From a virus, in the IMG/VR virus record IMGVR_UViG_3300048815_000006, positions 1 through 39,469 of that record: DNA of 39,469 bases, one strand, 5' to 3'. The first letter of the stretch is position 1. Every line of letters begins with the position of its first letter. The notes below the pieces were generated by a model. The model worked only from the letters and a program-made list of their open reading frames with translations, was not told the DNA's origin and did no database searches. This document shows positions 3-24,523 of the stretch, in pieces. The position numbers and the translations under genes are program-made.

Positions 3-2372
3 ACTGCGGCCAGCCAGCATCTCCAGGACATTGAGGCCGGCACCGTTCGCGGCGATCTCGGTTTGGTCGCCAGTGGCGCGGCAGGCTTGACCGATGCCCG
101 ACTGAAGCAAGCGCAACTGCTGTACGGCACCATGTCGCCACAGATGGCCGATGCGGTGCGGGGGAAGGCTGCGGCTGAGGCAATCGAGACCCAAGTCAAG
201 ACGTTGATCCCGACCGATCCCGCAAGAGCATCGCGGATTCTCCAAGCCAATTCGGACAAACTGCCGGCAGCAGCTTATGAGGAACTGAGCCAGCGGACCA
301 AAGCCTACGCCGACGACATGACCCTGACGGGCGATGTGGGCGGCTACATGCGCGGCCAGCCGCCGCCGCGTGCATCTGGAGGCGCGGGGCCAGCGCCATC
401 GGCGAACACGATCCCCGAGCCGCAGCGCGCCGCGCTGTTGCAACAAGCCGTGGTCGGAACACCGATCCCGCCCGCAACGCTCGATGCTCTGGTCAAACAG
501 GAAAGTGGATGGGACGCGGGCCAGCGTGGTTCGGCCGGCGAGATCGGGTTAGCGCAGATCAAGCCGAGCACGGCGACGGCGCCCGGCGTCGGGATGGCCG
601 GCGTGGACCCTACGACACTCAATGATCCCGCTGCCAATCTGAGGTTTGGCGCGCAATATCTGTATGCCCGCGGCAAAGCGGCCGGACTGACGGATGCAGA
701 TTGGAAAGACCCTGCGAAAGTCGCTGTTGTGCTGAAGGAGTACAACGGCGGCGGCGATCCCGATTACGTGCAGCATGTGACGAGCCGTATGGCGCCCGGC
801 GGCGTGTTGCCTGCATCGTATTCCGGCGGTGCTGCACCAGAGATCGGAGCGACGCCGGTCGCCGCACCAGGCACCTCTCCACCAGTCGCGTCTGCGGGCG
901 TCGTCGCGCACAACCCGGCCGGCGTGGACATGCTGGCGCAGAAATACATCGGGGCGAGGGACGAGGCTGCGCGGCTCTACCCGGGCAACTCGGTCATGCA
1001 GGACCGTTTCGTCCAGCGCGTCCATCAGGATGTAAACGAACTGATGATGCTGCAAAACCGCGACGAAGCGGTCCGCGAGAAGGCCCGGAAGGACGCATCG
1101 GAGGCGGCCGGGCAACAGGTCTTGACCACGCTACACAAGAACCCGGGCCAGTTCGATCCGGCGCTGATCTGGAACCAGCCAGACAATGTGATGACGTGGG
1201 AAGAGAAGCAGCATCTGGCCGAGGTCGCCAACTATCAGTTGACGCAGGCCGGCATCGATCCGGTCCATCATGCGGCCGGTTACACCAAAGTGCTGGCCGG
1301 CATCACGGCAGACCCGAGCGCCCCGAACTACATCAATTCGATGCGCGATATCTACAGCCGAGCCGGGGAGGGTGGCGATCTCAACCGCCGCGACGCGGAT
1401 GAGTTGTCCCAGATATTCACCAGGGTCCACAAGGACCCGGATTACGCGACACTGAAGACGCGCGAGGCGTCGATGCTGAAAATAGCCAACCGCGCGCTCA
1501 TGTTCACCGACCCGGAAGTTCCCGACAAATTCCAGACCCCTGATCGCGTGGGCCAGGACATCTTCGACGGACAGTTTGTGCAGACCTATTTGCCGATGGT
1601 CGACAGGGCTGCGGCGACTGGCAAGCCGGACGAACTCGAAAAGGTTCTGAACAAGGATTTCGTGCTCAATCTGGCGCACAGCATGCGGTCGCAGGCCGAC
1701 ATCGACCGAGCCCGGATGGAAGCGACGGGGCAATCCGCCCCGGGCGACGTGGAGAAGCCGGGGACGCCGTTGCCTCCGGTGCCGACGATCCAAGACAAAG
1801 ACGGCAAGCCGGTAACGATCAATCCTGGGGGTTGGGGGACTGTGATGGTGCGCCCCCCAGTTGCAGAGAGCGGCCAACCCTACACGCACGCCGCATGGGC
1901 GACGTATCTCTCCCGGCTCGTGCAGAACCCGGACCCGAAGACGATCCAGTATTTCGACCAGCACTTCGCCGCGCAGGGTTACAGCGGAGCCGACATCGTG
2001 AAGGCCCTCACGACGCCCGCCGGGGGCGCTGCACTGCTGCCGGCGACCGACGAGTTCGGCGGCGGCGGTCCTGCTCCGGCCGCAGGGACGCCCGCAGCAG
2101 TGGCGCCGGCGACCACACACCAACCGACCGGACCCTACACGCTCGAATCCATCGGTGGCGGAGGTGCGTATCGTGGCCAGTTCAAAGTCCTCGACGCCGC
2201 CGGACATGATACCGGCTTCAAGGGCACGCACGATGAAGCACAGGCCGAACTGGCGCGGCTCAATGCGGTGCGGGCCGGCGGGTGGAACCTGCGCCTGCCT
2301 GACCTGGGCATCCACATGCACCACACGCCGGGCGTGATGAGCGGCCTGCCAACGGACCAGACCAAGCCCTGA
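3..2372 (+). CDS. Lytic transglycosylase virion (ejection) protein, 5' end cut by window
   Basis: The frame is open to the left edge, so the gene starts outside the window; the first in-frame start seen (TTG at 63) continues a coding stretch and is not a convincing start. Counting from that TTG, residues about 125-245 form a soluble-lytic-transglycosylase domain. The catalytic Glu is E147 in KQESGWD, followed by GEIGLAQIKPSTA, NLRFGAQYL and KEYNGG. The rest is long helical and Pro/Ala-rich sequence without a recognised domain. A transglycosylase embedded in a large protein just before a membrane-active giant protein suggests an internal virion protein that opens peptidoglycan during DNA entry, by analogy with T7 gp16. 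The stop overlaps the next start (TGATG), so translation is probably coupled. The domain is secure; the virion role is inference. Confidence 0.85.
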   Translation, partial: TAASQHLQDIEAGTVRGDLGLVASGAAGLTDARLKQAQLLYGTMSPQMADAVRGKAAAEAIETQVKTLIPTDPARASRILQANSDKLPAAAYEELSQRTKAYADDMTLTGDVGGYMRGQPPPRASGGAGPAPSANTIPEPQRAALLQQAVVGTPIPPATLDALVKQESGWDAGQRGSAGEIGLAQIKPSTATAPGVGMAGVDPTTLNDPAANLRFGAQYLYARGKAAGLTDADWKDPAKVAVVLKEYNGGGDPDYVQHVTSRMAPGGVLPASYSGGAAPEIGATPVAAPGTSPPVASAGVVAHNPAGVDMLAQKYIGARDEAARLYPGNSVMQDRFVQRVHQDVNELMMLQNRDEAVREKARKDASEAAGQQVLTTLHKNPGQFDPALIWNQPDNVMTWEEKQHLAEVANYQLTQAGIDPVHHAAGYTKVLAGITADPSAPNYINSMRDIYSRAGEGGDLNRRDADELSQIFTRVHKDPDYATLKTREASMLKIANRALMFTDPEVPDKFQTPDRVGQDIFDGQFVQTYLPMVDRAAATGKPDELEKVLNKDFVLNLAHSMRSQADIDRARMEATGQSAPGDVEKPGTPLPPVPTIQDKDGKPVTINPGGWGTVMVRPPVAESGQPYTHAAWATYLSRLVQNPDPKTIQYFDQHFAAQGYSGADIVKALTTPAGGAALLPATDEFGGGGPAPAAGTPAAVAPATTHQPTGPYTLESIGGGGAYRGQFKVLDAAGHDTGFKGTHDEAQAELARLNAVRAGGWNLRLPDLGIHMHHTPGVMSGLPTDQTKP

Positions 2373-5300
2373 TGGCTGACCCCGCTACTCTCGACGCGCC
2401 ACCGACCGGACGCTTGCCGGCGAGCGGAGACCCGTTTGCCGGGATCGACCCCTTCATGGCTGCGGCACCGGCTGCCGCGACCGCGCCTGACCCTGACGAT
2501 CCGTTCGCGGACGCGCCGCCGCTGGCGAAGGGCGAGACCGGCGCCCCTGGTGCCTTCATCTCCCACGCGGCCCGAGGCGTGCTGCCGATGGTCGGCGGGA
2601 TGGCTGCGGCTGGTGCTGGCGCTGAGATCGGCGCCGGAATTGGCGCTCTCACCGGACCATTTGCGCCCGTAGCGGCACCAGTCGGTGGCTTCATCGGTGG
2701 GTTGGCGGGGTTCTTTGCCGGCTCCGCCGCGACTGAGACCGCCCAGGATTGGGCGCTGAAGCAACTCCCGATGGCTGCCCAGGAGGCGGCCGGGCAATCC
2801 GAGCGCGCCCAGCGCGAGCAGGAGATCGAGCACCCCTACGCCTCGTTCATGGGCGGGATCGCCCCATACGCGATCACGATGTCGCCCGGCGGCTGGACCA
2901 AGGGCGCCGCATCGCTGCCTGAGAACGCGACGACGTTCCAGAAGATCATGGCGAACCCGTTGACGGCGAAAGCCTTCAGCGGCGCGATGATGGGCGGCAT
3001 GGAACTCGGCAACGAGTGGACCGAGGGCCAGCCGACCGATTGGGCCAAAGTCGGGATATCGACCGGGTTTGGGTTGATCTTTAGCCACCCCTACCAGCAC
3101 GGCGAGTACCTGACGAATCTTGGCGCCCAGCCTGTCGTCCGGCTGTTCTCGCGAGGCATGGAGGTTCCGCCGGCGGGAGTACTGAACCCCGAGGAGCCAA
3201 CCGTCGCCCAGGCTGGCGATGTCGGCGTGATCGGCCCCGGCATCACCGAACACACCTTTCGTGGCGGCGAGCAGCAGAGCGATGCGACCCGAGCCTCGGC
3301 ACAGAACGCCGCGGCGGATGAGCAAGCCGCGCTGGGACCGCTGCCGACGCCGGACCTGGACGCGATCGCGCGTCGGCTCGACCCCGACACATTCGCGCAG
3401 AACGATGAACTGCTGGCGCAACGGGACGCGCTGCGATCCTGGATCCAGACCGAAAGCAACCCGACCGACGACATGATCGCGCAGGCGACCGCGGCTCGGC
3501 AGGCGATCGACGATCAGTTGGCGGAGACGAAGAACCGGGCTGAACAGCGCCGGCTTCGTGTGCAGCAGCGCGCCGCGCAGGCGGACCTGGATGACCTGAC
3601 CAACCGCAGAGAAGCGTGGGAGAACGGCACGCACGTCGATACGCCGGACATCTCAATGGCCCGGCAGCATCTGTTGGATACCGAGCACGCGCTGTGGGAC
3701 TTGGCGCCGGACATCTCGGCGGCGCGGAGGCGGGCGGCGGATCATGTGGGGGAGGAGCCTGAACCGGCCGCGCAAGAGGTTGCGGCCGGTCACGAGCAGC
3801 CGGCGGCCGAGGTTCCGGAAAAAGGGAGGGTTATTTCGGAACCCGCCGCGCCGGCTGAGAAATCCCCCGACGCGCAACGCGCCTTCATCGCCCAGGACCG
3901 CGCGACGCAACTCATGGCCGCCGGCCTGTCCAAGGCCACGGCAGAGGCGTCCGCAGCCGTTGAGGCTCACTACTACGCGACCCTGGCGGCGCGGTTCAAC
4001 GGCGCCCTGGGGACGGCGGAAGACCTGTATCGAGCGCGAGCCGCGCGTGTCATCGGCCCGGGGCAGACCGCACCGGCCGAAGGTGCGCCGCCGGCGCCGA
4101 TTACCCGCACGGAACCCCTGCGTTCGGCTGCGATCCGGTCCATCGCGGACATCCAGGCGCAGGATGGTGTCGGCGCCAAGCGGGCCAAGGCGATCCAGGA
4201 GCAGGAGATACTGGCACGCGGGCGGGTGATTGAGCCGGGCACCCCGAGGGGCGAGCCGGTTGTGCCGGCCGTCCCTCAAGTTCCATCAAATCCATCAACC
4301 TCCATCAATCCCGCGCCAGTCGAGCGCGCCCCAGAACTCGCCGAAGCCGCGCAAGTCGCCCCGCCAGTGCCTGAACCCCGCCCGCGCCTCCGCAGCGCCG
4401 CCGACATCATGCGCGAGGACCGCGTTCCCGAGAGCCGCGTCAAGGCGGTCCAGGACGCTGAATTGGCGGCCTTGGCCGACTGGCAGGCCCGACACCCATC
4501 CGGGGAGCCTCGCCCGAAGCGCAACCGCGCCGCTGATCGGTTGGCCGAGACCGCCGGCATTCCGACCGCCGGGGTGCCCGAGCCTGCCGTCCTGACCGAG
4601 ATTGTGGACCGGTTGCCGGAAGAACGGGTTGTCGAGGAAGTCAACGCTGCTGCGGAAGCCGGCGAAATCGAGTATCGGGAGGCGGAGGCTGAGGCGCCCG
4701 AAGCGACCGAAACCCCCGACGCCTTCTACGACGCCGACCAGTCCCGCAGCCTGGAGGAATTGGAGAGTGAGCATCGACCGGCAGCGCAATCAGTTGCCAG
4801 CACCCCAGAGCCGGCGTCTCTTGCGGCGCTGATCCCAGAACCAGAGCGCAGGGAGAGTGCCGCAAAAGGGGAGGCGTTGGCAAAAGAAGGGGAGGCATTC
4901 CTCGCACGCGCAGCGGCAGTCGAACGCGAGAAGAACTATCGGGTCGGCGGTCTGACGCGAGAAATCCAGCATGACGCAAACCTACTTCGCGATCTGGCGG
5001 CGGAGCATGCTGCCGGCGATGACCGGCTACTCGAAAAAACACTAGACCGACTGTCACCGCTGCGCGTCGGGAAAACGGCGTACCAAGAAATCGGTATGCC
5101 CGAGGTGCGAGATTGGGAGAACAAGGCATACGAGTGGGCCTATGGCCTGGAAGAGAGGATCGAACGTGCTCGACCGGCGAACGAAGCTGCTGCACCTGAG
5201 CAACGCGAGGGCGGCGGCGGGGAACCAATCGTTGCCACAAGCGACGAGGGACAAGTACCAGAGGGCGGCGGACCAGTTGGGACTGTCGGTGGGACTGGAG

Positions 5301-8300
5301 AACGCGTTGCAGACGAAGGCGGAGAACGAGGCGATGTCGAGCACGCCGTCGCAGCCGCAGGGGTTGGGCCAGACTACCGGCCAGAGCCTGCTGCCGAGCA
5401 GCCCCCCGAGCCAGCCGGAGCAGAGCAAGGAACTGGCGTCCCCCAGCAACCTGCTGGCGTAAGGCGCACAGACGCCCGCGGCAACCCGATCTTCGCCAAG
5501 GGTGAGCGGGTTGTCATCCCGGATGGCGAGCATCTGGCCGGGCGGCATGGGACGGTCGAGGAAGCCAACGGGCTGGTGTTCCAGTCTCTGTATGGCGGCC
5601 AGAAGACGGAGCCGACCTACACTTATCAGGTCCGCACCGATGCCGGCGAACTGGTCCATTCCAATGCGCCGGTAGCCGAGACAGGCGAGCGCCCCGAGGT
5701 CGTGCCCGACCCGATCTACCAGGGTCACGCACGCAACCCGGCGGAACTGCTGCGGCACATCGGCCTGGATGAACGTGCAGCCACCGGATATGTGACGCGC
5801 GGCGCGCGGGCGCGTACCCCGAAGATGAAGGCCGAATGGGCACGCGAGGCAGCCAACTCACGGGACAAGGCTGCGGCGCAGCGGGCCGTGCTGGACGCAT
5901 GGGCGACGGAACATCCCGAGGAAGCCGCCAAGGTCCTGCCGGCGCGGGCCGCCGTTCCCGAAACCCCGAGCGCCGCATCGACTACTCCGGTCGGCGGCAT
6001 GTCCATCGTCGAGACCCGCCACACCAAGCACGGTTACCCGCTGTGGTCGGTGACGCTGAGCGGGGAACGGCTGCCGTTGGATCGATTCAACGAACTGCGG
6101 GGCGCGGCGCGCGAGGGCGGCGGCGACTGGTCATCGTGGCGCGGGCGCGGCGCTGTGCCGGGGTTCCAGTTTCGGACGCGCGAGGCGGCGGAGGCGTTTC
6201 GGGAACGGTTCGGTGGGGAGGGGCCGGCGGCAGAGGCCCCCGCACCGGCTACATCGGCGCGGCCTGAGTGGACCGAGGCCGGCCAGAACGACCGCGGCGA
6301 GACGATCTATACCAACGCGGAAGGCGCTCACTCCGTTATCGAGAACGGCGTCCGGGTCATTGAAGGCGTCGCGCTACGGCCGGTGCGCGATGAGCGGACC
6401 GGGCGGATTTCCTACGTGCCGCAGATCAAGGCGCCCGGGTCCAAGGAACTCCGGTATGAGGTGGTTCCCGAGGCGCCGACCGTTGCTGAGGTGACAGAGC
6501 AAGCCGGCGGAAGCGAATCGCTGCCTCCGCAGCCAGCACCGGCTCCGGAAACTCCGAAGGTCCGCACCATCTCCGACGCGCTCGCCCCCGCCGAGGGGAA
6601 GGGGCCGGCGCCGGTTACGAGTGCGCCAGAGGAAGCCCCTCGCGCATCCAAGGACGTGCAGATCGAGCACGCCGAGCAGATGCCGTTCGAGGACGCGCAC
6701 GACCTTGCAACCGCGCGCCGGATGCTCAACGCCTATCGTGGCGACAAAGGCGTCGAAGCGGCGGTTGCGCGCATTGAGGCGGGCGAGCCGTGGCAGGACG
6801 TGTTCCGCACCGCCAACACGCCGTTCACCGCGTTTGAGACACGCTCAATTGCCGAGGTGGCGCGCGCGGATGGCCGGATCAGGCCACGCGAGGAAGCGCC
6901 AACGCCAGCGCCCCCAGCAGAGGGTTCGGCATACGGCGCCAACAACAAACTCGTCACCCAAGCCGACCGCGAGGCGATCCGCGCCCGGCTCCGCGCAAAA
7001 TCTGGTCAACTCCGCACCGGCATTGACCCGGAAATGATGCTGGATGGCGCCCGTCTCGCCGTCTTCCACATCGAGGCTGGCGCGCGGGCCTTCGCCGACT
7101 ACGCCCGCGAGATAGTCGCCGACATCGGCGTCGAGTTCCGACCCTACCTGCGGTCCTGGTATGAGGCAGCCCGGCATTGGCCGGGCGTCGATGCTCGCGG
7201 CATGACCGCGGCGGGAGAGATTGAGGAAGCCCCCCATGTCGCCGAACGCACCCCGGAAACCCCCGAGGACGTGGCCGACATCGACCAACTGCTTGACACC
7301 CATCGCAACGACCCCATCATCAATGAGATCGCTCGCCTGACCGGGGCCGGCTGGACTCCCGAAGAGATCGAAAACGGTCCGGCTGGCGACCGCTTCTCGC
7401 TCGATGAGATCGAGAGCATCGTTCGTGCCCAGGAACGCCGGGGCGAGATCCCGGAACTCGATGAGGCGGAAGGCCAAGGCGACCTTTCGTTCGAGGAGGA
7501 TGAGGGTGGAGTTCAAGGGGCCGTACCTGTTCGCGATGAGGGAGCAGGACCCGAAGATGTTCATGGAGCTCCGTCGCTCGGGGAAACTGGACGCGCACCT
7601 TCAGGAGAAATCGGTGGAGGCGCACGAACTGCTGAACCAGCTGCTGGCGAAGAAGCCCAAGGACAGGTTCGGGGAGCACAGCCAGGCGGACGTGCGGGAG
7701 GCCGAGGAACTGGTGCGGGCGCAACTGATCGAGTTCCCAACACCGGAGAGGGATCAGCGGCCGGAGCCACCAGACGATTTGCCGACCGTCCGGATGCGGG
7801 CGTCGAAGGATCGAACTTCAGCATCGAGCCAGGCGACCTAGCCGAAGGCCGTGGCCGCACCACCAAGGCGCGGGACAACATCGCGGCCATCGAACTCGCG
7901 AAGCGGCTGATCGACGAAGGCCGGCCAGCCACCAAGGCTGAGCAAGCCATCCTTGTGAAATACACCGGCTGGGGCGGCATCAAGAACGCCTTCCCGGACG
8001 CGCGTGGCGAGTTCCGTCCAGAGATGGAGGACATCGGCCGCCGCCTTCGTGCAGCACTCACCGACGAAGAATACCGCACCGCGCAACAATCGGTGCAGTA
8101 CGCCCACTACACGGCCGAGCATGTCGTCCGCTCAATGTGGGATGCGGTGCGGCAGATGGGCTTTGACGGCGGCCTGGTGTTCGAGCCCGGCCTTGGGGTC
8201 GGGCATTTCCTTGGCCTGATGCCTGCCGATCTTGCCGAAAAGAGCGAATACCAGGGCATCGAGCGCGATCACCTGTCGGCGCAAATCGCGAAGCTACTGT

Positions 8301-11300
8301 ATCCCGAGTCCGGCATCCGCGAGGCCGACTACATCCGAACGCCGGTCCCGGAGGGATCGTTTGATCTGGTGATTGGCAATCCGCCGTTCGGCGACATTAT
8401 CATCAACGGTGATCCGAAGTACGCCGCCCGCGGCTTCATGCTGCACGATTATTTCTTTGCCAAATCGCTCGATAGCGTGCGGCCCGGCGGCCTCCTGGCC
8501 TTCATCACGTCGGCCGGCACGATGAACAAGCTGGACGCCTCGGCCCGGCTATATCTCGCCGACCGCGCCGATCTGGTTGGCGGCATCCGGCTACCGAACA
8601 CGACGTTCCGCCGCAACGCCGGGACTGAGGTGACGACCGACATCCTGTTTTTTCGCAAGCGCGCCCCGGGCGAGGAGGGGATTGAGCCGGCCTGGACCGA
8701 GACCGTCCAGCGCACATTGCCGAGCACAAAGGGCGGCGAGCAAGAAACGAATGTCAGCCGCTATTTCTCCGACCATCCCGAGAACGTGCTCGGCACCGAA
8801 GCGTGGGGCGAAATGCAGGCCGCTGGCCGCTACGAGGTCCAGCAGGTGCCCGGCACTGATCTTGAGGCTGATCTCCGCGCCGCTGTGGATCGCCTGCCGC
8901 GCGATGTGATGACCGCCGCCCCAACGCCGGAAGAACGTGCCCGGCTTGATTTTGCCTCCGGGCAGCGGAAGGACGGCAGCTTCTACGTCGGCGCCGATGG
9001 CAAGCTGATGCAGTACCGGGATGGCGCAGGCCGAGAAGTTCCGGCCTACGGCAAAGGTGGTGGCGGCCTGACCGGAGCGGCCCGCGAGCGCGTCGAGCAC
9101 CTGATCCCGATGCGGGACGCGCTGCGGGACGTGTTTGCCGCGGACCTGGCGCGAGATGATGCCGCCGGCGCAGAGGCGCGGGCGCGGCTCAACGAGCACT
9201 ACGATCGCTTCGTCCAGAAATTCGGCCCTATCAACAAGGCGGAGTTCACCTATCGGCGGCCATCGATCATCCAGCAGGAAACCGCCCGGCTGGAAGCGCG
9301 CGAGGAAGCGCGCATGTCGGACCAGCGGTTCGATGACGGCGAGTTCGATCCGAGTTCCATGCTCGCGAACAAGGCGAAGGTCAGCGAGATCGCCAGGGCG
9401 CGGCAACAGGCCCGCGAGGCAGCAAAGGCCGCAGGACGCGAGTTCGACGAAGGCACATTCGACCCGTCCGCAATGCCGGATGAGGTGTCGGAGAAACGTC
9501 CGAACATCAAGCCGTTCATGTCGGACCCAGAGAGTTACCGGCTGCGATCGATCGAGAATTACAACGATGCCACCGGGGAGGCATCCAAGAAGGCGATCTT
9601 CCGCGAAAACATCCTGAAGCACGAGGAAGAGCCGGAACTGAAATCGGCCAATGACGGCGTGCTCTGGTCGATGAACAAGCTGGGCCGGTTCGACGTTGAC
9701 GCCATCGCCAAGAAGATGAGGCGCGAGCCCGCCGATATCGTCGCTGAACTGGGCGATGCGGTCTACAAGGTGCCTGGCACCGAAGACACTTACCAGACCA
9801 AGGACGAGTATCTGTCGGGTGATATCGTGTCCAAGCTGGAGACGGCGCGGGCCGAAGCTGAAACAGACCCTGACGTGCGGCGCAACATTCCCGCCCTGGA
9901 GGCCGCGCTACCGCCTCCGCTGCCGCCCTCGGAAATCTCGATGGTCCTCGGGATGCCGTGGATACCGACCGACACCCTGCGCGAATTCGTCCGCGATCAC
10001 ATGGAGATGGGCGAGCCGCATATCAGCCACAGCGCCATCACTGGGACATGGTTCGTCAATGGCGGCCGCGCCGCACAGGAAGCCGGCGTCCAGCGATGGA
10101 GCACACCGGACCGCAACGCCTTCGAGTTGCTGTCTGACGCGATGAACCGAACGCCGCCCCGCATCTACGCCGAAGAGCGCGGCCCGCGGGGTGAGAAAAT
10201 CAGGGTGTTCGATCCCGTCGCCACACAGGCGGCGCAGGACGTGACCGACTCCATGAAGGCAGCGTTCACCGATTGGGTTGCCGCCGATCCAGACCGCGCA
10301 AACAGGCTGGCAGACCTCTACAACGATAAGCTGAACAGGACCGTGCTACGTCAGTTTGACGGCAGCTACATGACCACGCCTGGTGTTGCTGCGACATGGA
10401 GTTGGCGCCCACACCAGACGCGGGTGGTGTCCCGCATTGTTCAGACCGGCAACACCTATATGGCGCACGCTGTAGGGGCCGGAAAGACGAGCGCGATGAT
10501 CGGCGCAGGGATGGAGATGCGCCGCCTCGGACTGGTGCGGAAACCGCTCTACGTTGTGCCCAACCACATGCTCGGGCAATTCACCAAAGAGTTCTACGAG
10601 CAGTATCCAACCGCACGAATTGCTGTCGCCGACGAAGATCGGTTCCACACCGACCGCCGCAAGCAATTCGTGGCCAATGTTGCGCAGGACGATCTCGACG
10701 CGATCATCATGACGCATTCGAGTTTCGGCAAGATCGGGATCAGCGACGAGTTCCAGCGCCATTTGATCGATGAGCAGATCGAGATGCTGGACAAGGCGCT
10801 TGAAGAACTGGACGAGCAGGCTGATCGCATCGCTCGGGGCCGGATCGAAAACCAGAAGGAAAAACTTGAGCAGAGGCTGTCTGGCCGCAGCGACGGGCAG
10901 GATCAGACGCTCACGTTCGAGCAGCTTGGCGCCGACTTTTTGTTTGTCGATGAGGCCCACCAGTTCCGCAAATTAAGCTTCGGGACCAAGCAGGGGAACT
11001 TGAAGGGCATCGCGCCCGAAGGGTCCAATATGGCTTGGGACCTCTATACGAAGGTCCGCTATCTCGACAGCCAGAAGCCCGGACGCTCCGCTGTGTTCGC
11101 CTCTGGGACGCCGGTCACCAACACGATGGGCGAACTCTACAGCCTGAGTCGGTTCATGCAGCCCGAGGCCCTGGCCGAGCGCGGATTGACGCACTTCGAT
11201 TCGTGGGCGCAGACTTTCGGCGATACTAAGACAGGTCTGGAAGAAACCGCCGCCGGCACCTATCAGCCGGTCACGCGGTTCGGCCAGTTCGTCAACCTTC

Positions 11301-14300
11301 CTGAGTTGTACAAGATGGTCGGCGAGGTGATGGATATCGTCACCCCGAGCCAACTTGAGCAGTACGTGACGCGGCCAAAGTTGAAGGGCGGCGAGCGCGA
11401 CTTTCACCTCGCCCCGCGCACCGAAATCCTGGATCGCTACCAAGCCGACCTCGCGGCCCGGATGCAGGCCATCAAGGACCGACGCGGGCCGCCGCAGAAG
11501 GGTGACGACATCCTATTGTCGGTCATCAACGACGGGCGGCACGCAGCCATCGACCCACGTTTCGTTGAAGAAACTGACAACGATCCGCGGTCCAAGCTAA
11601 ATGTGATGGTGCAGAACGTCGCGCGCATCTACCACGAAACCGCCGACAAACAGTTCTACGATCCGGCCAGCAACTATGAGCGGGAGAGTTTCCAAGGTCC
11701 GGCGACGCAGATGGTTTTCGCCAATCTGGGCGTGAACGGTCGCGGCCCGATGGGCTTCTCGTCATACCAGTGGATCAAGGAAGCGTTACGCCGAGAGGGC
11801 GTGGCGCCCGAACACATTGCGTTCATCGGCGACTATCCCGGCACGCTTCAGCGCCAAGCCTTGTTCAACGACATGAACGAGGGGAAGGTCCGCATCCTGG
11901 TCGGCTCGACGCAGAAGATGGGCACCGGGGTCAACGCACAGCGGCGCCTCGTCGCGCTGCATAATCAGGACCCGCTCTGGTTCCCAGCCGACGATGAGCA
12001 GCGCGTCGGGCGCATCTTGCGCCAGGGCAACCACAATCCCGAGATCGAGGTCCACGACTACTCGACCAAGGGCACTTACGATTCCGCCATGTGGAAGATG
12101 ATGGGCAACAAGGCCCGGTTCATCGAGCAGTTCTTCCGGGGCGACCCGAGCCTGCGGAACATGGAGGATGTCGGCGAGGCCAGCATGTACGAGCAGGCGT
12201 CGGCGATGGCGACGACCGATGAGCGGATTATCACGCTCACGCAACTCAAACAGGATTTGGACAAGGCCCGGCGACGGGAGTCGGCACACAACAGCGGCCA
12301 GTATGCGCTGCGCTCGCAACTGAAAAACAAAGAGTGGTGGGCCGACTTCGAGGCCAGGTCCGCGGCGTCCATCCAGGAAGATATTGAGAAGCGCGAGGAC
12401 ACCCGAGGCGATAACTTCGCGATGCACGTCGGCGGCGAGAAATTCGACAAACGTAAAGAAGCGGAGGCCGCGCTTAGCGAATTGACCGCAGACCGCGCCG
12501 AGGGCCTAGGCAAAGGCGGTGAGACGCCAGTCGGTCGCATCGGCGGCTTCCCGATCATCATGTCACGGAACACCAAGGGCGCGCTGTCCTTCAACCTCCG
12601 CCTGTCCGGGGGCAACGCCCGTGAGTTAAATTTCAACTGGTACGGCAACAAGTCGGTGCATGACGCCTTTGTGGAGGCCCAGCGCAGGGAGAACGGAGAG
12701 GAGGCTGCTACGAAGGCGGCGGCTTCCCCAATGGGTGCCAAGGGCCTGATCCAATCCGCGGAGCACACACTGCGCCAGTTCGAGGACCGGCTCGCCGCCT
12801 CCGAAGCATCGCGCGCCAGGGCGCTTCGCGAGGCCGACAACATCCGGCCTCTGCTTGGTCAACCTTTCACCGGCGGCGACGAAATCCTGCGTCTATCCAA
12901 TGCCGTACGGGACCTGGAAGGCCAGTTACGGCGCGAGGCGGAGGCCAAGGCCAATCCCGATGCGCCCTCCCCTGAACCGACGCCGGGTATTCCAGCCGAA
13001 CCCACCTCCGCGCTGCCCCGCTGGGAAGGCCCGACACCGGAGGCTGTCTCCGGTTTCATGGCTGGTGGTGGAGATCTGTTCCAACGTCTCCGCCAGTCCA
13101 TCCAAGGCAAAATCCGCATATCCCCCGGCGAAACACGCTCCATCATCACCCTGGCCCGCAGCGCCGACGCCAGCACCTTCATGCACGAGACCGCGCACGA
13201 CTGGCTGAAGCAACTCCTGATGGACGCGGCGCACAATCTCGCCCCCCAGGCCCTCCGAGACGATGCCGCCACGGTGCGTCGCTGGCTGAAGCGTCCCGAC
13301 GCATGGACAGGATTTAAGCGCGATGGTACACCCGATGTAGCGCCCCAAGAGCGTTTCGCCCGTGCGTTCGAGCAATATCTACGCGAGGGTCATGCTCCAA
13401 GCCGGGCGCTGGATGGTGTCTTTGCGAAGTTCAAGTCGTGGCTGACCACGATCTACCGGACGTTGCGCGGACTTGGCGCTCCAATCTCGGACGACATCCG
13501 CGGTGTGTTCGACCGGATGCTGGCGATCGAGCCGGAGCGGATCACCCACGGCGAGGTGCCGGAACGCGGGCCGAGCATCGCGGACATCCACGAGGCCGAC
13601 GCAGCGGAGACGCCGCCGCGCGAGGCCGAGGTAGTCGCGGATCGGATCGCCGCCGAACGTGCCAGGAACCAGCCCCCGCCAGAGGTCGCGCATGAAATCG
13701 CCGCAGTCCAGCCAATCGAGCCAGCCGGCGCCACTCAACCCGGAGCAGAAGCTGCAACTGGCCCAACAGGACGCGGAGAAGTGGCGCCAGGCGGCGGCCA
13801 GCCCGAATCTGTCACCGATGGCAGCGGCGTGGGCGCTGGGACAGGCGCGGTCGGCGCAGGCGGAGGTGAAACTGCGGCAGAAGGGACTGGCGTATCAGGC
13901 GGAACAGGACAATCCAGTGACGCAGGGGGACGACGCGGCACTGAACGTGCTGCTGGGTCTCCCGCTGAACAACTCGCCCCAAGGCCAGCCGAATCCCTCG
14001 ACGACACCGGCGATACAACCGCCGTCGACCTCGCCGGGAATATCCGCGTCGAAAACCTCACCGACGTAGAGAGCATCGCCCAGGCGATTCACGATTCGGC
14101 GGATCGCAACGACGAGTTCCGTCAGGTCCGGGGCGGAATGACCAAGGGCCAGATGCTCGATCTGGCCGAGGCAATGGGGTTAGACCCCAACAAGATCGAC
14201 GAGGCCGGGCTTGCCAGACTGCTCGGCGGCACATCCGAACTTGGGCCGCGCATTTTGGCTGCACGTCGGCTCGTGGTGCAATCGGCCGAGATCGTGTCCA

Positions 14301-16537
14301 ACATCATGAAGCGGGCCGCGCAATCCTGGACCGATGCTGACGGCGCCGAACTCGGGTTGGCGATTGCCCGGCATGACATGATCCAATCGGCGCTTGCTGG
14401 CGTCACTGCCGAATGGGGTCGGGCCGGTAACGCGTTCCACAATCTGCTGGAGGGATGGGGGAAGGCGCAGGACCTGAACCAGTTGCTGCGCGACAATACG
14501 GGGCGCGATCTCTATCAGCTCCAGGTGATCGCCAAGATGGGGTCGCGACTGGACACCCCCGGCAAGGTCTCGAAATACCTCCGGGACGCGAAGAGTCGGT
14601 CCTTTGGCGGCATGATCCTCGAGTACTGGATCAACGGGCTGATCTCAGGCATCGCGACGCATGCCACCTACGTGGTCGGCAACACCATCCTGGCGGCGGA
14701 GAAGGCCGGTCCCGAGACTGCGGTCGCGGCGGCGATCGGCGCCTTCCGGGCCCGGATGGGACGGGTCGGAACCCGGGTCAGGCTCGGGGAGGTGGGCGCG
14801 CAGTTCGGCGCGGCCTTCCGTGAGGCCCCTGCGGCGGTTCAGGCCGGCATCGAGGCGTTGCGCAGCGGCGCCACCACCCAGCTTCCAGGCGAGGCCGCAA
14901 GGCCACTGGTGCCGTTCCAGGGCGATACCTCCCTCACTACAAGCCGGGGCATGACGAACCAGCATGTCACGTGGCGGGAGGTGGGTGCAGACGCCTACGG
15001 GTTGGTGCAGGGGATGCGTGACGGCATCGTGGCGGCCGGCGAATTGGTGCGGGCCGGTGGAGTAGAGGGCGCTCCGACGTGGGGCTGGCAGTCGTCACCG
15101 CTCGGGCAGATACCGGGCTTGGCCTACAAGGGTGTGGAAGTCGCACCCATCGGGCACATCCTGCGCTTGCCGAGTCGGAACGTGGCCGCGATCCATTCGA
15201 CGTTCCGCGCCATGAACTATTCGATGGAGATCAACGCGCTCGCCTTCCGTCAGGCGGCCGATGAAGGATTGGCCGGGGAAGCCTTTGCGGCCAGGGTTTC
15301 CGAACTCCGCCAGAACCCACCCGAGGAAATGATGGACGCGGCGCGGGGTAAAGCAACCGACCTGACCCTGATGGGTCAGGGCGGCAAGCTGACCGAGGCC
15401 CTGAGCCGACTGTTCAACACCACGATCAACCTGCCGGTCCTCGGCGAAACCGCGGTCCTGAAATTCGTCGACCCTTTCGTCCACATCGCCGGCAACATCA
15501 TGAACCAGTCGCTGCTACAGCGGACCCCGGTCGGGCTGCTGTCGCGCGAGATCAGGGCGGACCTGGCCGGCAAGAACGGCAACGTCGCCCAGGATACCGC
15601 GGCGGCGAAGATGCTGGTCGGAACCGCGATTGCGGTCACGTTCGGCGGTCTCGCTGCTCAGGGCTTGGCATCCGGCTCCGGTCCCGCCGATCCAAACAAA
15701 GCCGCGATGTGGCGTCTTGCAGGAAACCAACCGCATAGCGTTCGCATCGGGGATATGTGGTACGCGGTGAACCGGCTCGGCCCGATGGGGCTGCTGCTCA
15801 GTGTCGCGGCCGACATGTACGATGTCGCGCACATGATGGGCACCGAAGACGCCGGGACGATTGGGTCCGCGTTGATGCACGCCTTCACGCAGAACATCCT
15901 GGATGAATCCTTCATGCGCGGGCCGTCAGACTTGATCCGCGCCACCACGGAGTCGGATCGGTACGGGGCGGCCTACATCCGCAACCTGCTGCCGTCGTTC
16001 CTACCGTTCTCCGTCCTGCAAGCCCAGATGGCGCGGGCCACGGACCCTTATTCCAGGCAGGCCCGCACCATCATGGACGCGATCCGGGCGCGGGTGCCAG
16101 GGTTGTCCGAGAGCCTGTTTCCACGCCGGGATATCTGGGGGGAGCCGATGCCGAGTGGCGATGCCCTGATAGCCCCTGGCGTGACGGCCATCTATGCGCG
16201 GCAGATGAGCACTGACCCGGTGAACCTCGCCATGCTGGCGCTCGGCGTGTCGCCGGCCCCGGTCGAGCGGACGATCCGCAACGTGAAGCTGACCGATCAG
16301 GAATATGACGACTACGCAAGGCTCGCCGGCCGGGCTGCGAAGATCAGGCTGGATGCCATTGTGAAATCCCCGCTTTGGGCAACGATGCCGAACGCGAGTC
16401 GCTATGAGGTGATCGAGGAGACGATCAAACAGAACCGTGAGGCGGCTCGTGGCATGATGATGATGAAGTACCCGCAGATTCCGCGCGATGCGGCCAAGGC
16501 GCAGATTGCCCGCAAGACGGGCGAAACGGTGCACTGA
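2372..16537 (+). CDS. Giant polyvalent protein: methyltransferase, SF2 helicase, metallopeptidase, ejection-like ends
   Basis: A single uninterrupted 4721-codon frame. Residues 60-140 are a Gly/Ala-rich hydrophobic segment likely to meet membrane. About 320-460 is charged and helical. About 1210-1290 and 1518-1612 are modules (HTK..., GANNK...IEAGAR) that recur in DarB-like giants. Residues 1817-2090 are an adenine-N6 methyltransferase (SAM loop FEPGLGVGH near 1937, NPPF at 2003-2006). About 2670-3260 is an SF2 helicase (Walker A GAGKT 2702-2706, DEAH 2860-2863, QRVGR from 3210). About 3590-3720 is a metallopeptidase with HETAH at 3605-3609. The C-terminus (3900-4721) has hydrophobic stretches near 4080-4110, 4413-4434 and 4468-4490. 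P1 DarB, a packaged methyltransferase-helicase that protects incoming DNA, is the closest functional model. Virion packaging and ejection are inferred. Three linkers (about 932-1031, 1712-1823, 3774-3900) are low-complexity and overprinted by small genes. Confidence 0.9.
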   Translation: MADPATLDAPPTGRLPASGDPFAGIDPFMAAAPAAATAPDPDDPFADAPPLAKGETGAPGAFISHAARGVLPMVGGMAAAGAGAEIGAGIGALTGPFAPVAAPVGGFIGGLAGFFAGSAATETAQDWALKQLPMAAQEAAGQSERAQREQEIEHPYASFMGGIAPYAITMSPGGWTKGAASLPENATTFQKIMANPLTAKAFSGAMMGGMELGNEWTEGQPTDWAKVGISTGFGLIFSHPYQHGEYLTNLGAQPVVRLFSRGMEVPPAGVLNPEEPTVAQAGDVGVIGPGITEHTFRGGEQQSDATRASAQNAAADEQAALGPLPTPDLDAIARRLDPDTFAQNDELLAQRDALRSWIQTESNPTDDMIAQATAARQAIDDQLAETKNRAEQRRLRVQQRAAQADLDDLTNRREAWENGTHVDTPDISMARQHLLDTEHALWDLAPDISAARRRAADHVGEEPEPAAQEVAAGHEQPAAEVPEKGRVISEPAAPAEKSPDAQRAFIAQDRATQLMAAGLSKATAEASAAVEAHYYATLAARFNGALGTAEDLYRARAARVIGPGQTAPAEGAPPAPITRTEPLRSAAIRSIADIQAQDGVGAKRAKAIQEQEILARGRVIEPGTPRGEPVVPAVPQVPSNPSTSINPAPVERAPELAEAAQVAPPVPEPRPRLRSAADIMREDRVPESRVKAVQDAELAALADWQARHPSGEPRPKRNRAADRLAETAGIPTAGVPEPAVLTEIVDRLPEERVVEEVNAAAEAGEIEYREAEAEAPEATETPDAFYDADQSRSLEELESEHRPAAQSVASTPEPASLAALIPEPERRESAAKGEALAKEGEAFLARAAAVEREKNYRVGGLTREIQHDANLLRDLAAEHAAGDDRLLEKTLDRLSPLRVGKTAYQEIGMPEVRDWENKAYEWAYGLEERIERARPANEAAAPEQREGGGGEPIVATSDEGQVPEGGGPVGTVGGTGERVADEGGERGDVEHAVAAAGVGPDYRPEPAAEQPPEPAGAEQGTGVPQQPAGVRRTDARGNPIFAKGERVVIPDGEHLAGRHGTVEEANGLVFQSLYGGQKTEPTYTYQVRTDAGELVHSNAPVAETGERPEVVPDPIYQGHARNPAELLRHIGLDERAATGYVTRGARARTPKMKAEWAREAANSRDKAAAQRAVLDAWATEHPEEAAKVLPARAAVPETPSAASTTPVGGMSIVETRHTKHGYPLWSVTLSGERLPLDRFNELRGAAREGGGDWSSWRGRGAVPGFQFRTREAAEAFRERFGGEGPAAEAPAPATSARPEWTEAGQNDRGETIYTNAEGAHSVIENGVRVIEGVALRPVRDERTGRISYVPQIKAPGSKELRYEVVPEAPTVAEVTEQAGGSESLPPQPAPAPETPKVRTISDALAPAEGKGPAPVTSAPEEAPRASKDVQIEHAEQMPFEDAHDLATARRMLNAYRGDKGVEAAVARIEAGEPWQDVFRTANTPFTAFETRSIAEVARADGRIRPREEAPTPAPPAEGSAYGANNKLVTQADREAIRARLRAKSGQLRTGIDPEMMLDGARLAVFHIEAGARAFADYAREIVADIGVEFRPYLRSWYEAARHWPGVDARGMTAAGEIEEAPHVAERTPETPEDVADIDQLLDTHRNDPIINEIARLTGAGWTPEEIENGPAGDRFSLDEIESIVRAQERRGEIPELDEAEGQGDLSFEEDEGGVQGAVPVRDEGAGPEDVHGAPSLGETGRAPSGEIGGGARTAEPAAGEEAQGQVRGAQPGGRAGGRGTGAGATDRVPNTGEGSAAGATRRFADRPDAGVEGSNFSIEPGDLAEGRGRTTKARDNIAAIELAKRLIDEGRPATKAEQAILVKYTGWGGIKNAFPDARGEFRPEMEDIGRRLRAALTDEEYRTAQQSVQYAHYTAEHVVRSMWDAVRQMGFDGGLVFEPGLGVGHFLGLMPADLAEKSEYQGIERDHLSAQIAKLLYPESGIREADYIRTPVPEGSFDLVIGNPPFGDIIINGDPKYAARGFMLHDYFFAKSLDSVRPGGLLAFITSAGTMNKLDASARLYLADRADLVGGIRLPNTTFRRNAGTEVTTDILFFRKRAPGEEGIEPAWTETVQRTLPSTKGGEQETNVSRYFSDHPENVLGTEAWGEMQAAGRYEVQQVPGTDLEADLRAAVDRLPRDVMTAAPTPEERARLDFASGQRKDGSFYVGADGKLMQYRDGAGREVPAYGKGGGGLTGAARERVEHLIPMRDALRDVFAADLARDDAAGAEARARLNEHYDRFVQKFGPINKAEFTYRRPSIIQQETARLEAREEARMSDQRFDDGEFDPSSMLANKAKVSEIARARQQAREAAKAAGREFDEGTFDPSAMPDEVSEKRPNIKPFMSDPESYRLRSIENYNDATGEASKKAIFRENILKHEEEPELKSANDGVLWSMNKLGRFDVDAIAKKMRREPADIVAELGDAVYKVPGTEDTYQTKDEYLSGDIVSKLETARAEAETDPDVRRNIPALEAALPPPLPPSEISMVLGMPWIPTDTLREFVRDHMEMGEPHISHSAITGTWFVNGGRAAQEAGVQRWSTPDRNAFELLSDAMNRTPPRIYAEERGPRGEKIRVFDPVATQAAQDVTDSMKAAFTDWVAADPDRANRLADLYNDKLNRTVLRQFDGSYMTTPGVAATWSWRPHQTRVVSRIVQTGNTYMAHAVGAGKTSAMIGAGMEMRRLGLVRKPLYVVPNHMLGQFTKEFYEQYPTARIAVADEDRFHTDRRKQFVANVAQDDLDAIIMTHSSFGKIGISDEFQRHLIDEQIEMLDKALEELDEQADRIARGRIENQKEKLEQRLSGRSDGQDQTLTFEQLGADFLFVDEAHQFRKLSFGTKQGNLKGIAPEGSNMAWDLYTKVRYLDSQKPGRSAVFASGTPVTNTMGELYSLSRFMQPEALAERGLTHFDSWAQTFGDTKTGLEETAAGTYQPVTRFGQFVNLPELYKMVGEVMDIVTPSQLEQYVTRPKLKGGERDFHLAPRTEILDRYQADLAARMQAIKDRRGPPQKGDDILLSVINDGRHAAIDPRFVEETDNDPRSKLNVMVQNVARIYHETADKQFYDPASNYERESFQGPATQMVFANLGVNGRGPMGFSSYQWIKEALRREGVAPEHIAFIGDYPGTLQRQALFNDMNEGKVRILVGSTQKMGTGVNAQRRLVALHNQDPLWFPADDEQRVGRILRQGNHNPEIEVHDYSTKGTYDSAMWKMMGNKARFIEQFFRGDPSLRNMEDVGEASMYEQASAMATTDERIITLTQLKQDLDKARRRESAHNSGQYALRSQLKNKEWWADFEARSAASIQEDIEKREDTRGDNFAMHVGGEKFDKRKEAEAALSELTADRAEGLGKGGETPVGRIGGFPIIMSRNTKGALSFNLRLSGGNARELNFNWYGNKSVHDAFVEAQRRENGEEAATKAAASPMGAKGLIQSAEHTLRQFEDRLAASEASRARALREADNIRPLLGQPFTGGDEILRLSNAVRDLEGQLRREAEAKANPDAPSPEPTPGIPAEPTSALPRWEGPTPEAVSGFMAGGGDLFQRLRQSIQGKIRISPGETRSIITLARSADASTFMHETAHDWLKQLLMDAAHNLAPQALRDDAATVRRWLKRPDAWTGFKRDGTPDVAPQERFARAFEQYLREGHAPSRALDGVFAKFKSWLTTIYRTLRGLGAPISDDIRGVFDRMLAIEPERITHGEVPERGPSIADIHEADAAETPPREAEVVADRIAAERARNQPPPEVAHEIAAVQPIEPAGATQPGAEAATGPTGRGEVAPGGGQPESVTDGSGVGAGTGAVGAGGGETAAEGTGVSGGTGQSSDAGGRRGTERAAGSPAEQLAPRPAESLDDTGDTTAVDLAGNIRVENLTDVESIAQAIHDSADRNDEFRQVRGGMTKGQMLDLAEAMGLDPNKIDEAGLARLLGGTSELGPRILAARRLVVQSAEIVSNIMKRAAQSWTDADGAELGLAIARHDMIQSALAGVTAEWGRAGNAFHNLLEGWGKAQDLNQLLRDNTGRDLYQLQVIAKMGSRLDTPGKVSKYLRDAKSRSFGGMILEYWINGLISGIATHATYVVGNTILAAEKAGPETAVAAAIGAFRARMGRVGTRVRLGEVGAQFGAAFREAPAAVQAGIEALRSGATTQLPGEAARPLVPFQGDTSLTTSRGMTNQHVTWREVGADAYGLVQGMRDGIVAAGELVRAGGVEGAPTWGWQSSPLGQIPGLAYKGVEVAPIGHILRLPSRNVAAIHSTFRAMNYSMEINALAFRQAADEGLAGEAFAARVSELRQNPPEEMMDAARGKATDLTLMGQGGKLTEALSRLFNTTINLPVLGETAVLKFVDPFVHIAGNIMNQSLLQRTPVGLLSREIRADLAGKNGNVAQDTAAAKMLVGTAIAVTFGGLAAQGLASGSGPADPNKAAMWRLAGNQPHSVRIGDMWYAVNRLGPMGLLLSVAADMYDVAHMMGTEDAGTIGSALMHAFTQNILDESFMRGPSDLIRATTESDRYGAAYIRNLLPSFLPFSVLQAQMARATDPYSRQARTIMDAIRARVPGLSESLFPRRDIWGEPMPSGDALIAPGVTAIYARQMSTDPVNLAMLALGVSPAPVERTIRNVKLTDQEYDDYARLAGRAAKIRLDAIVKSPLWATMPNASRYEVIEETIKQNREAARGMMMMKYPQIPRDAAKAQIARKTGETVH
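5166..5462 (+). CDS. Overprinted small gene A inside the giant gene (+1 frame), 98 aa
   Basis: Start GTG at 5166 is preceded by GAGAGG with a 7-base spacer; an ATG at 5142 in the same frame lacks such a site. A hand count gives G or C at about 90 of 98 third positions in this frame. The overlapping giant frame here reads as Gly/Ala/Glu/Pro-rich filler. The product begins with a helical segment (about residues 2-50, LDRRTKLLHLSNARAAAGN...) and ends in a Gln/Ser/Pro-rich tail. The TAA stop at 5460-5462 lies where the giant frame again becomes ordinary domain sequence. No family is recognised. The reading frame is well supported by codon bias and ribosome site; expression is untested. Confidence 0.7.
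   Translation: MLDRRTKLLHLSNARAAAGNQSLPQATRDKYQRAADQLGLSVGLENALQTKAENEAMSSTPSQPQGLGQTTGQSLLPSSPPSQPEQSKELASPSNLLA
7506..7841 (+). CDS. Overprinted small gene B inside the giant gene (+1 frame), 111 aa
   Basis: GTG at 7506 follows AGGAGG (7494-7499) with a 6-base spacer, an excellent ribosome site; an in-frame ATG at 7500 touches the site and is less likely. About 84% of third positions are G/C by hand count, against about 36% in the giant frame over the same bases. The product is a normal-looking helical protein: EFKGPYLFAMREQDP, then LRRSGKLDAHLQEKSVEAHE, then REAEELVRAQLIEF and an acidic Pro-rich tail. The segment with SGKL...L followed by an EAEE-type helix loosely recalls small TnpV-like proteins, but this is only an impression. 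TAG at 7839-7841 lies exactly where the methyltransferase domain begins in the giant frame. Confidence 0.8.
   Translation: MEFKGPYLFAMREQDPKMFMELRRSGKLDAHLQEKSVEAHELLNQLLAKKPKDRFGEHSQADVREAEELVRAQLIEFPTPERDQRPEPPDDLPTVRMRASKDRTSASSQAT
13692..14069 (+). CDS. Overprinted small gene C inside the giant gene (+1 frame), 125 aa
   Basis: ATG at 13692 has AGAGG 6 bases upstream. A GTG at 13659 is in frame but has no clear ribosome site. About 79% of third positions are G/C by hand count. The encoded protein has a Ser/Gln-rich start, a helical centre (NPEQKLQLAQQDAEKWRQ, then MAAAWALGQARSAQAEVKLR) and a Pro/Ser/Thr-rich tail. The giant frame over the same bases is a Gly/Ala/Thr repeat-like linker. 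The TAG stop at 14067-14069 immediately precedes the start of the C-terminal ejection-like part of the giant protein. Its layout (short helical region plus disordered Pro/Ser/Gln tail) resembles overprinted gene A. Function unknown. Confidence 0.72.
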   Translation: MKSPQSSQSSQPAPLNPEQKLQLAQQDAEKWRQAAASPNLSPMAAAWALGQARSAQAEVKLRQKGLAYQAEQDNPVTQGDDAALNVLLGLPLNNSPQGQPNPSTTPAIQPPSTSPGISASKTSPT

Positions 16538-17844
16538 TGTCCTATTCGGACCAGAACGGCCAGACGCCGGCGAACGCGACCGGCGCCTACGTCCTGAGCG
16601 CGCAGGAATTGCAGGGCGCCCAGTGGATTGTGGTCGTCTCCGACAACTCGCAGTTGACCGTTACGACGCTGGACTTTCTCGGGGAATTCCTGGGTAGCGG
16701 CACGGTGATTGCGCTGGCCGGGGATGTGATCGGGACGACCGGCACGAATACGGTTCAAGCCATTGGCGGCCACACGGTTGATCTCGGTGGATCGCTGACG
16801 ACAGGCGGCCCCGTTGCTTTCGAGGGCGCGTTCTCGTGGGTCGGTAATGTCACCGGCCCAACGAACGTCACCTTCCCGGAAGGAACCAACGACCTCGGCA
16901 CGATGTCGAGCTTCACGGTGATTACCAATTCCGGCACCCAGGTCGTCACGCAAGGGGAGACATTCGACGCGACGGCCGGCACCGGATCGATGTCGGACTG
17001 GGTTGCCGGGACTGGGTTCCTCAATTCCGGGACCATCACGAACGGCCAGACGGCGAACGTCGCGGCCCTGAGTGGCGATGTTACCAGCATCAATACCGAT
17101 GGCACGATCGCGACGACTGTTACGGCGGTTGGGGGCCATTTGCTGACCCTCGCTGGGACGGCGGTTCTTCCGGCCGGGACCATGCTGGCGAACGGACTGG
17201 CGTCCGGGGACATCTTCGTCGGCAACGGCTCTGGGGTGGCGACCGCAGTCGCGATGTCAGGCGATGCGACGATCTCGAATACTGGGGCGATCGCGGTTGG
17301 CAAAACCAACGGCGTCTCCTTCGGCACCCTAGCCACCCTCAACGCCGCGCCAGCCGGGACGCTCACGGGGACCACACTGGCGTCGAATGTGGTGTCGTCG
17401 TCGCTGACGAGTGTGGGCACGATTGGCACCGGGACGTGGCAGGGAACTGCCATCGGATACCCCTATCTGCCGGCTTCGGCTGATATCGCGACGATCCCGT
17501 TCCCGCTGATCGGCTCTCCGCTTGGCGGCCAGTCCTTTATGGTTCCCGTGACGCAAGCCGGCACGTTGCTGGCAAATGGCGGCTCTGGGTTCACTTGCTT
17601 CAAAAACCCAGCCGGCGGCGTCAACCCAACAGCCACCTGGACGCTGCTTGTGCAGGAAATCACTAACGCCGGCAGTGTCACGACGCTTGGGACGATATCG
17701 ATCAGTTCCGCCGGATCGGTGACCGCGCCGACGTTCTCCAACACCGCCATCGCGGCGGACAGCGGTATAGCTATTACTAACCAGGCGACTGCCGACGCGT
17801 CCGCTGCCTACTGGTCAATCGGCTTCCAGTTCCAGAAGACCTGA
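16537..17844 (+). CDS. Tail-fibre-like structural protein
   Basis: 435 residues, starting at an ATG that overlaps the stop of the giant gene (TGATG). Composition is dominated by Gly, Thr, Ser, Val and Ala in short beta-strand-like repeats, with few charged residues. Phrases such as LTSVGTIGTGTWQGTAI and GNGSGVATAVAMSGDATI are typical of phage tail-fibre and spike proteins, in which many such repeats trimerise into a beta-structured shaft. The last 80 residues or so look like a globular tip. It heads a run of three or four surface proteins, so it most likely belongs to the host-recognition device at the tail end. Fold and position in the virion are inferred. Confidence 0.75.
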   Translation: MSYSDQNGQTPANATGAYVLSAQELQGAQWIVVVSDNSQLTVTTLDFLGEFLGSGTVIALAGDVIGTTGTNTVQAIGGHTVDLGGSLTTGGPVAFEGAFSWVGNVTGPTNVTFPEGTNDLGTMSSFTVITNSGTQVVTQGETFDATAGTGSMSDWVAGTGFLNSGTITNGQTANVAALSGDVTSINTDGTIATTVTAVGGHLLTLAGTAVLPAGTMLANGLASGDIFVGNGSGVATAVAMSGDATISNTGAIAVGKTNGVSFGTLATLNAAPAGTLTGTTLASNVVSSSLTSVGTIGTGTWQGTAIGYPYLPASADIATIPFPLIGSPLGGQSFMVPVTQAGTLLANGGSGFTCFKNPAGGVNPTATWTLLVQEITNAGSVTTLGTISISSAGSVTAPTFSNTAIAADSGIAITNQATADASAAYWSIGFQFQKT

Positions 17845-24271: not shown

Positions 24272-24512
24272 TGCCGCCCATGCTGCAATGTCGGATAGTC
24301 AGTTGCAAACCGACATTTCCGACCCCCACACCCCCGCCATAATCGCAGCCCACCGCGACGCAGCCGAGATGCTGTCCGGCCTCCCCGAACCGGCGCGGGC
24401 GGTGTGCGCTGCTGTGGCTCGGCGGTTTGCGGAGAGGGCGGCGGAGTTGGAGCAGAGTGAGGGATTCGAACCCATCGACCCTTCGCTTGGAAGGCGAACG
24501 CTCTACCGCTGA
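24264..24512 (+). CDS. Hypothetical protein whose 3' end is antisense to a tRNA gene
   Basis: ATG 24264 (or 24288) overlaps the previous gene. Up to about residue 64 the product is a normal small helical protein (IIAAHRDAAEMLSGLPEPAR, VARRFAERAAELEQ). The last 20 or so residues are simply the translation of the complementary strand of tRNA-Gly, and the TGA stop lies in the tRNA D-arm region. This suggests that the tRNA was inserted or recruited at the gene's 3' end, replacing the original tail and stop. Function unknown. Confidence 0.5.
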   Translation: MGNAAHAAMSDSQLQTDISDPHTPAIIAAHRDAAEMLSGLPEPARAVCAAVARRFAERAAELEQSEGFEPIDPSLGRRTLYR

Positions 24513-24523
24513 GCTAACCCTGC
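24448..24523 (-). tRNA. tRNA-Gly (UCC), CCA encoded, one extra base in the T stem
   Basis: Read on the minus strand, the acceptor arms GCAGGGT and ACTCTGC pair over 7 bp (one G-U). The D arm is GCTC AGCGGTA GAGC. The anticodon arm is TTCGC CTTCCAA GCGAA with anticodon TCC. The T arm carries TTCGAAT and the discriminator T is followed by encoded CCA. With a standard 5-base variable loop, the 5' T-stem strand is GATGGG against CCCTC, so one U is bulged. The fold is otherwise complete. It lies downstream of two minus-strand genes and is probably cotranscribed with them. The bulge raises doubt about aminoacylation or elongation competence. Confidence 0.85.

Follow-up and report, generated by a model that had tools for sequence, protein, structure and literature searches.

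Does a low-complexity linker inside a giant phage gene also carry, one frame off, a small gene of its own? The window analysed here, that is, the whole stretch of 39,469 bases, is a viral record (IMGVR_UViG_3300048815_000006) with one giant frame. This frame (2372–16537, plus strand) encodes a protein of 4,721 amino acids that is assigned to phrog_10089 (E 0). It meets the definition of a DarB-like protein, namely a very long protein in which an adenine methylase is fused to an SNF2/SF2 helicase, with the methylase at about residues 1890–2100 and the helicase at about residues 2670–3260. By this methylase-helicase pair the giant belongs to the DarB-like antirestriction polyvalent proteins, which include P1 DarB and the Bcep22-like gp75. 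Packaging in the virion and injection are expected of a DarB-like protein; presence in the virion has been shown by mass spectrometry for JC1 gp69 (PMC9144972), not for the giant of this phage. The window also has a predicted tRNA-Gly (tcc) gene on the minus strand at 24448–24523.

The putative nested gene, A, occupies positions 5166–5462 of the plus strand in the +1 frame of the giant ORF. It has a GTG start, 98 codons and a TAA stop, and a Shine-Dalgarno-like GAGAGG (5153–5158, plus strand) lies 7 bases 5′ of the GTG, exactly as the original prediction had placed them. The duplex energy of this site is −7.9, a value equalled by 5% of 1,612 background ATG or GTG sites in the +1 frame. A nested gene has to lie wholly inside another gene and be read in a different frame, a criterion that A meets, and an own start with a ribosome site is a further one, met at the sequence level only. 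An alternative ATG at 5142 would add eight in-frame codons (5142–5165, plus strand) and yield a product of 106 amino acids. This extension is absent in the homologue found in L025 (IMG/VR contig IMGVR_UViG_3300041955_000884), and the homology supports GTG 5166, not ATG 5142, as the true start. Across A the giant frame is a linker of low complexity, as had been described, and is rich in Gly, Ala, Glu and Pro. The downstream edge of the linker is a giant-frame domain directly after A (5480–5950, plus strand), which is 50% identical in L025 and 41% identical in L005.

Two further +1 nested genes are predicted in the same giant. The middle one of the three, B (7506–7841, plus strand), lies directly upstream of the methylase domain and would encode 111 amino acids from a GTG that follows GAGGAGGA (7493–7500). 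A form of B is recognisable in nearly every DarB-like giant examined, in phages of Burkholderia, Agrobacterium, Erwinia, Klebsiella, Vibrio and Pseudomonas, and always in the +1 frame. It is nested in this frame in all the closer relatives (L002–L007, L025, L048–L050 and L052) and likewise in Bcep22, BcepIL02, DC1, BcepMigl, CSP3 and JC1. A distant form occupies the same place in Atu_ph08, PBC5, Mwe-JY07, VvAW1, POI1126, Itty13, Pavtok, PEp14, Stean, SopranoGao and LASTA, and the sole annotation under the match in these 11 records is the giant or a giant fragment. The two forms are linked only through their position and a weak profile similarity. In six of these phages, stops are absent from both the nested and the giant frame, against 4–6 in the third, and the mean identity of nested B (0.56) exceeds that of the giant (0.38). 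When the whole giant was scanned in nine Bcep22-type phages, first codon positions varied more than third positions exactly in the B windows. A repeat with seven Bcep22-type giants again picked out B, with two other small windows coming close. Judged from these substitution patterns, B is under ongoing constraint in close relatives. Its product is predicted to be a small helical protein. No significant match to its fold was found in the PDB, and searches for B on plasmids and in a GTDB scan gave no match. B shares a weak profile similarity with TnpV (PF14198; E 0.013–0.04) but misses the Pfam gathering cut-off (15.9 versus 27 bits), so membership is not met.

The third predicted gene, C (13692–14069, plus strand), lies in a C-terminal linker and would encode 125 amino acids from ATG 13692, in a +1 frame that is open from 13635. 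Its core resembles the nested gene at the A position of L007 (shuffle z 7.9), a likeness which suggests that nested genes may move between linkers. Other giants also have small +1 genes upstream of B, mostly without sequence relation to A. A single common family of A and all the A-position genes was considered and is unsupported, as only weak pairs were found. Small +1 genes were also seen near the C-terminal end of the giants L002 (17697–17906), L004 (15070–15279), L028 (13672–13875), L029 (13657–13866), L036 (about 17558–17767) and L021 (7895–8119). The nested genes at this end of other giants fall into at least two sequence types. The B starts of relatives have a Shine-Dalgarno pairing of −9.0 kcal/mol against −3.5 kcal/mol for the background (p 3e-11), and ribosome sites are also stronger than background at the A-position starts (p 8e-7) and the C starts (p 0.009). 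These p values are optimistic, because the sequences are related and some of the A-position and C starts were picked by eye.

Is the protein encoded by A itself conserved? The L025 homologue (35% identity, E 1e-9, tblastn against the fetched loci) is likewise a +1 reading of a giant frame, which runs for 11 kb without interruption, and the giant domain that follows it is the one found in the window. Its ATG aligns with GTG 5166 and has GAAGAGGA upstream, a moderate ribosome site (−5.8, equalled by 20% of background sites). Since homologous DNA can resemble itself in every frame, the pair was assessed by a two-frame test, in which the residues of one frame are fixed and the synonyms resampled. 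With the giant residues fixed, the expected nested score was 55–56±14 and the observed score was 115 (z 4.2–4.3). With the nested residues fixed, the giant score was accounted for (z 1.3–1.4). The flanking giant domain after A gave the opposite result in the same test (z −0.7 nested, 10.1 giant). When the entire giant was scanned in 66 windows, the top ranks for conservation beyond the giant's amino acids went to B and A. The +2 frame was also considered as the coding one; it scores 164, but it has an internal stop in the window, and frames 0 and +1 jointly explain its score (z 0.2). Constraint on the nested protein beyond the host frame, a further criterion for a nested gene, is met, with one pair for A and many pairs for B. 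The conservation test that accompanied the original prediction could be carried out within the available data, and L025 keeps both frames unbroken as well as the start, with the higher conservation in the nested frame. The conservation case for A remains that of a single sequence pair. No homologue of A was found in INPHARED phages, and peptide patterns retrieved none beyond L025 from IMG/VR contigs. The giant domain adjoining A had no match in GTDB contigs, and L005 retains this domain without A at the junction. As far as these searches reach, A is lineage-restricted, while sites of this kind are commonly filled in giants.

This patchy distribution would suit a relic, namely a once-separate small gene that was overrun by the giant frame and is no longer translated. 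The nested frame is also normal in its codon composition, and it is the giant that bears the compromise. However, neither nested copy has acquired a stop, although 102 of 234 aligned positions differ between the window and L025, the start and the ribosome site of A have been kept, and B is still constrained in close relatives. Thus, a relic retains only a slim chance.

A frame that is open by chance in a GC-rich linker, with a composition dictated by the giant's amino acids, has to be weighed against the composition of the two frames. For this giant protein and the codons it generally uses, the +1 frame at A would be open with a probability of 0.67–0.74; permuting nothing but the codons of the region itself lowers the value to 0.07. 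With chance sufficing in about 70% of cases, openness proves little, and the length of the open frame was rejected as evidence for A. The GC content at nested third positions (GC3) was computed as 0.918, in agreement with the 92% noted originally. This observation holds, but it is weak evidence when taken alone. It is partly automatic, since the nested third position is the giant's first, which is G/C-rich in any such linker owing in part to the Gly, Ala, Glu and Pro codons. The informative figure is the giant's own GC3. It is 0.51 in the A region against 0.77±0.04 predicted by the giant's codon usage (z −6.2), and none of 20,000 resamples reached a value as low. A strong deficit of this kind coincides with a long open +1 frame in only three regions along the giant, which are A, B (7506–7841, z −9.8) and C (about 13659–14069, z −6.4). 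The giant's codon choice is also strongly atypical in L005 at 7848–8027 and in L014 at 10237–10416 (z −11.4 and −7.5), where there is no long open alternative frame. A chance frame explains neither the giant's synonymous choices at A nor the nested similarity of A to L025, which the conservation of the giant does not account for (z 4.2). The start and ribosome site common to the window and L025, and the recurrence of the same pattern at B, at C and in other giants, also speak against it. A mere chance frame is therefore highly improbable.

A could also be reached by programmed frameshifting, which would end the giant early and append A as its tail. The +1 frame is indeed already open 40 codons ahead of GTG 5166, and in PBC5 the giant frame leads straight into nested B. 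The PBC5 giant (L028) is split, and its front half enters B via a frame change just before B, around 7070–7114, which may be natural or a sequencing error. This is one record. The 40 codons 5′ of the A start have no similarity to L025 in any frame, so that the conserved unit starts at the nested start codon. In addition, for B an in-frame stop stands 2–3 codons ahead of the start in several relatives, and the nested starts bear strong ribosome sites. For these reasons independent initiation is favoured, and frameshifting is extremely doubtful. A constraint on an RNA or DNA structure or signal rather than on a protein is scarcely credible: the A linker shows more nucleotide conservation than the giant's amino acids account for, but the substitutions are conservative in the nested frame (BLOSUM 1.67 per residue versus 0.92 in the giant frame, window against L025), the conserved stretch opens with a start codon, and the giant gene has no match among Rfam families.

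The original proposal, an overprinted gene that has its own ribosome site, remains the best reading in view of the giant's GC3 deficit, the L025 homologue and the strong ribosome sites at the nested starts of related giants. I regard A as very probably a genuine nested gene, although there are no transcript, ribosome profiling or peptide data. That A is initiated independently and that its product is a small accessory of the giant is likely, with both the translation and the role inferred. Ribosomes would start at GTG 5166 of the giant's message and read the +1 frame where a linker joins two domains of the giant, and the 98-residue product would act in trans, for example as an assembly, head-loading or ejection helper. 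Sharing one message would tie the dose and the place of synthesis of A to those of the giant.

The predicted structure of the A product has a helical hairpin as its head (helices 4–18 and 25–56, pLDDT about 81–90) and a disordered tail rich in Gln, Ser and Pro, much as had been foreseen from the sequence. No family match was found in Pfam, PHROGs or NCBIfam, and the fold comparison against BFVD gave no significant match. P1 DarB needs separate small virion helper proteins, Ulx, DdrA and Hdf (PMC9024508), and the JC1 study failed to identify small helpers of the P1 type in Bcep22-like phages (PMC9144972). From this need and from the co-location of A and the giant on one message, it is tentatively inferred that A helps the giant antirestriction protein, a role rated as less likely than not. 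A might instead regulate how active the giant is, or do something unrelated, and nothing tested supports a physical link between A and the giant. The likeness to Ulx, DdrA and Hdf, which also serve a DarB-type virion protein, is one of suggested role only. Unlike A and B, these are separate genes, and the A and B profiles do not match Ulx, so membership is not met. P1 darB was also considered as a further nested-gene host and was rejected, since it has no match to A or B.

Nested phage genes in alternative frames are known, such as phiX174 E in D and lambda Rz1 in Rz. Like A, each is a small gene inside a larger one, in another frame and with its own initiation. Their hosts are ordinary single genes, often with a role in lysis, whereas here the linkers between the domains of one giant virion-type protein would house several unrelated small genes. 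Unlike the present reading of the window's giant, the known DarB-like proteins have no annotated nested genes in the records checked; in the GenBank records read at the region, no +1 nested gene is annotated inside an intact giant. Itty13 is annotated on the opposite strand at the nested region. No report of nested genes in DarB-like giants was found in the open-access literature, although a mention in the 2011 genome paper of Bcep22 and BcepIL02 is not excluded. A term search of the polyvalent-protein survey (PMC5512222) gave no mention of nested genes.

Which of the two frames is the older? Since the nested frame is gene-like in composition and the giant linker bears the compromise, the giant frame, not A, may be the later layer, laid over a small gene. 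It is even conceivable, though doubtful, that the giants were assembled across intact small genes. Their linkers would then be the one-frame-off reading of several small partner genes, and would serve as interchangeable bays for hidden, lineage-variable accessories that assist in loading, ejecting or controlling the giant. With several nested genes inside a single host gene, the direction of overprinting can be tested in a tractable case. The family-wide pattern is more important than A itself. The linkers of polyvalent proteins are usually taken as filler, and some of them here appear to be double-coding; at least one conserved nested family, B, was missed in well-studied cultured phages. If the nested products serve the giant, they would be candidates for the helpers that have yet to be identified for DarB-like antirestriction in phages other than P1.
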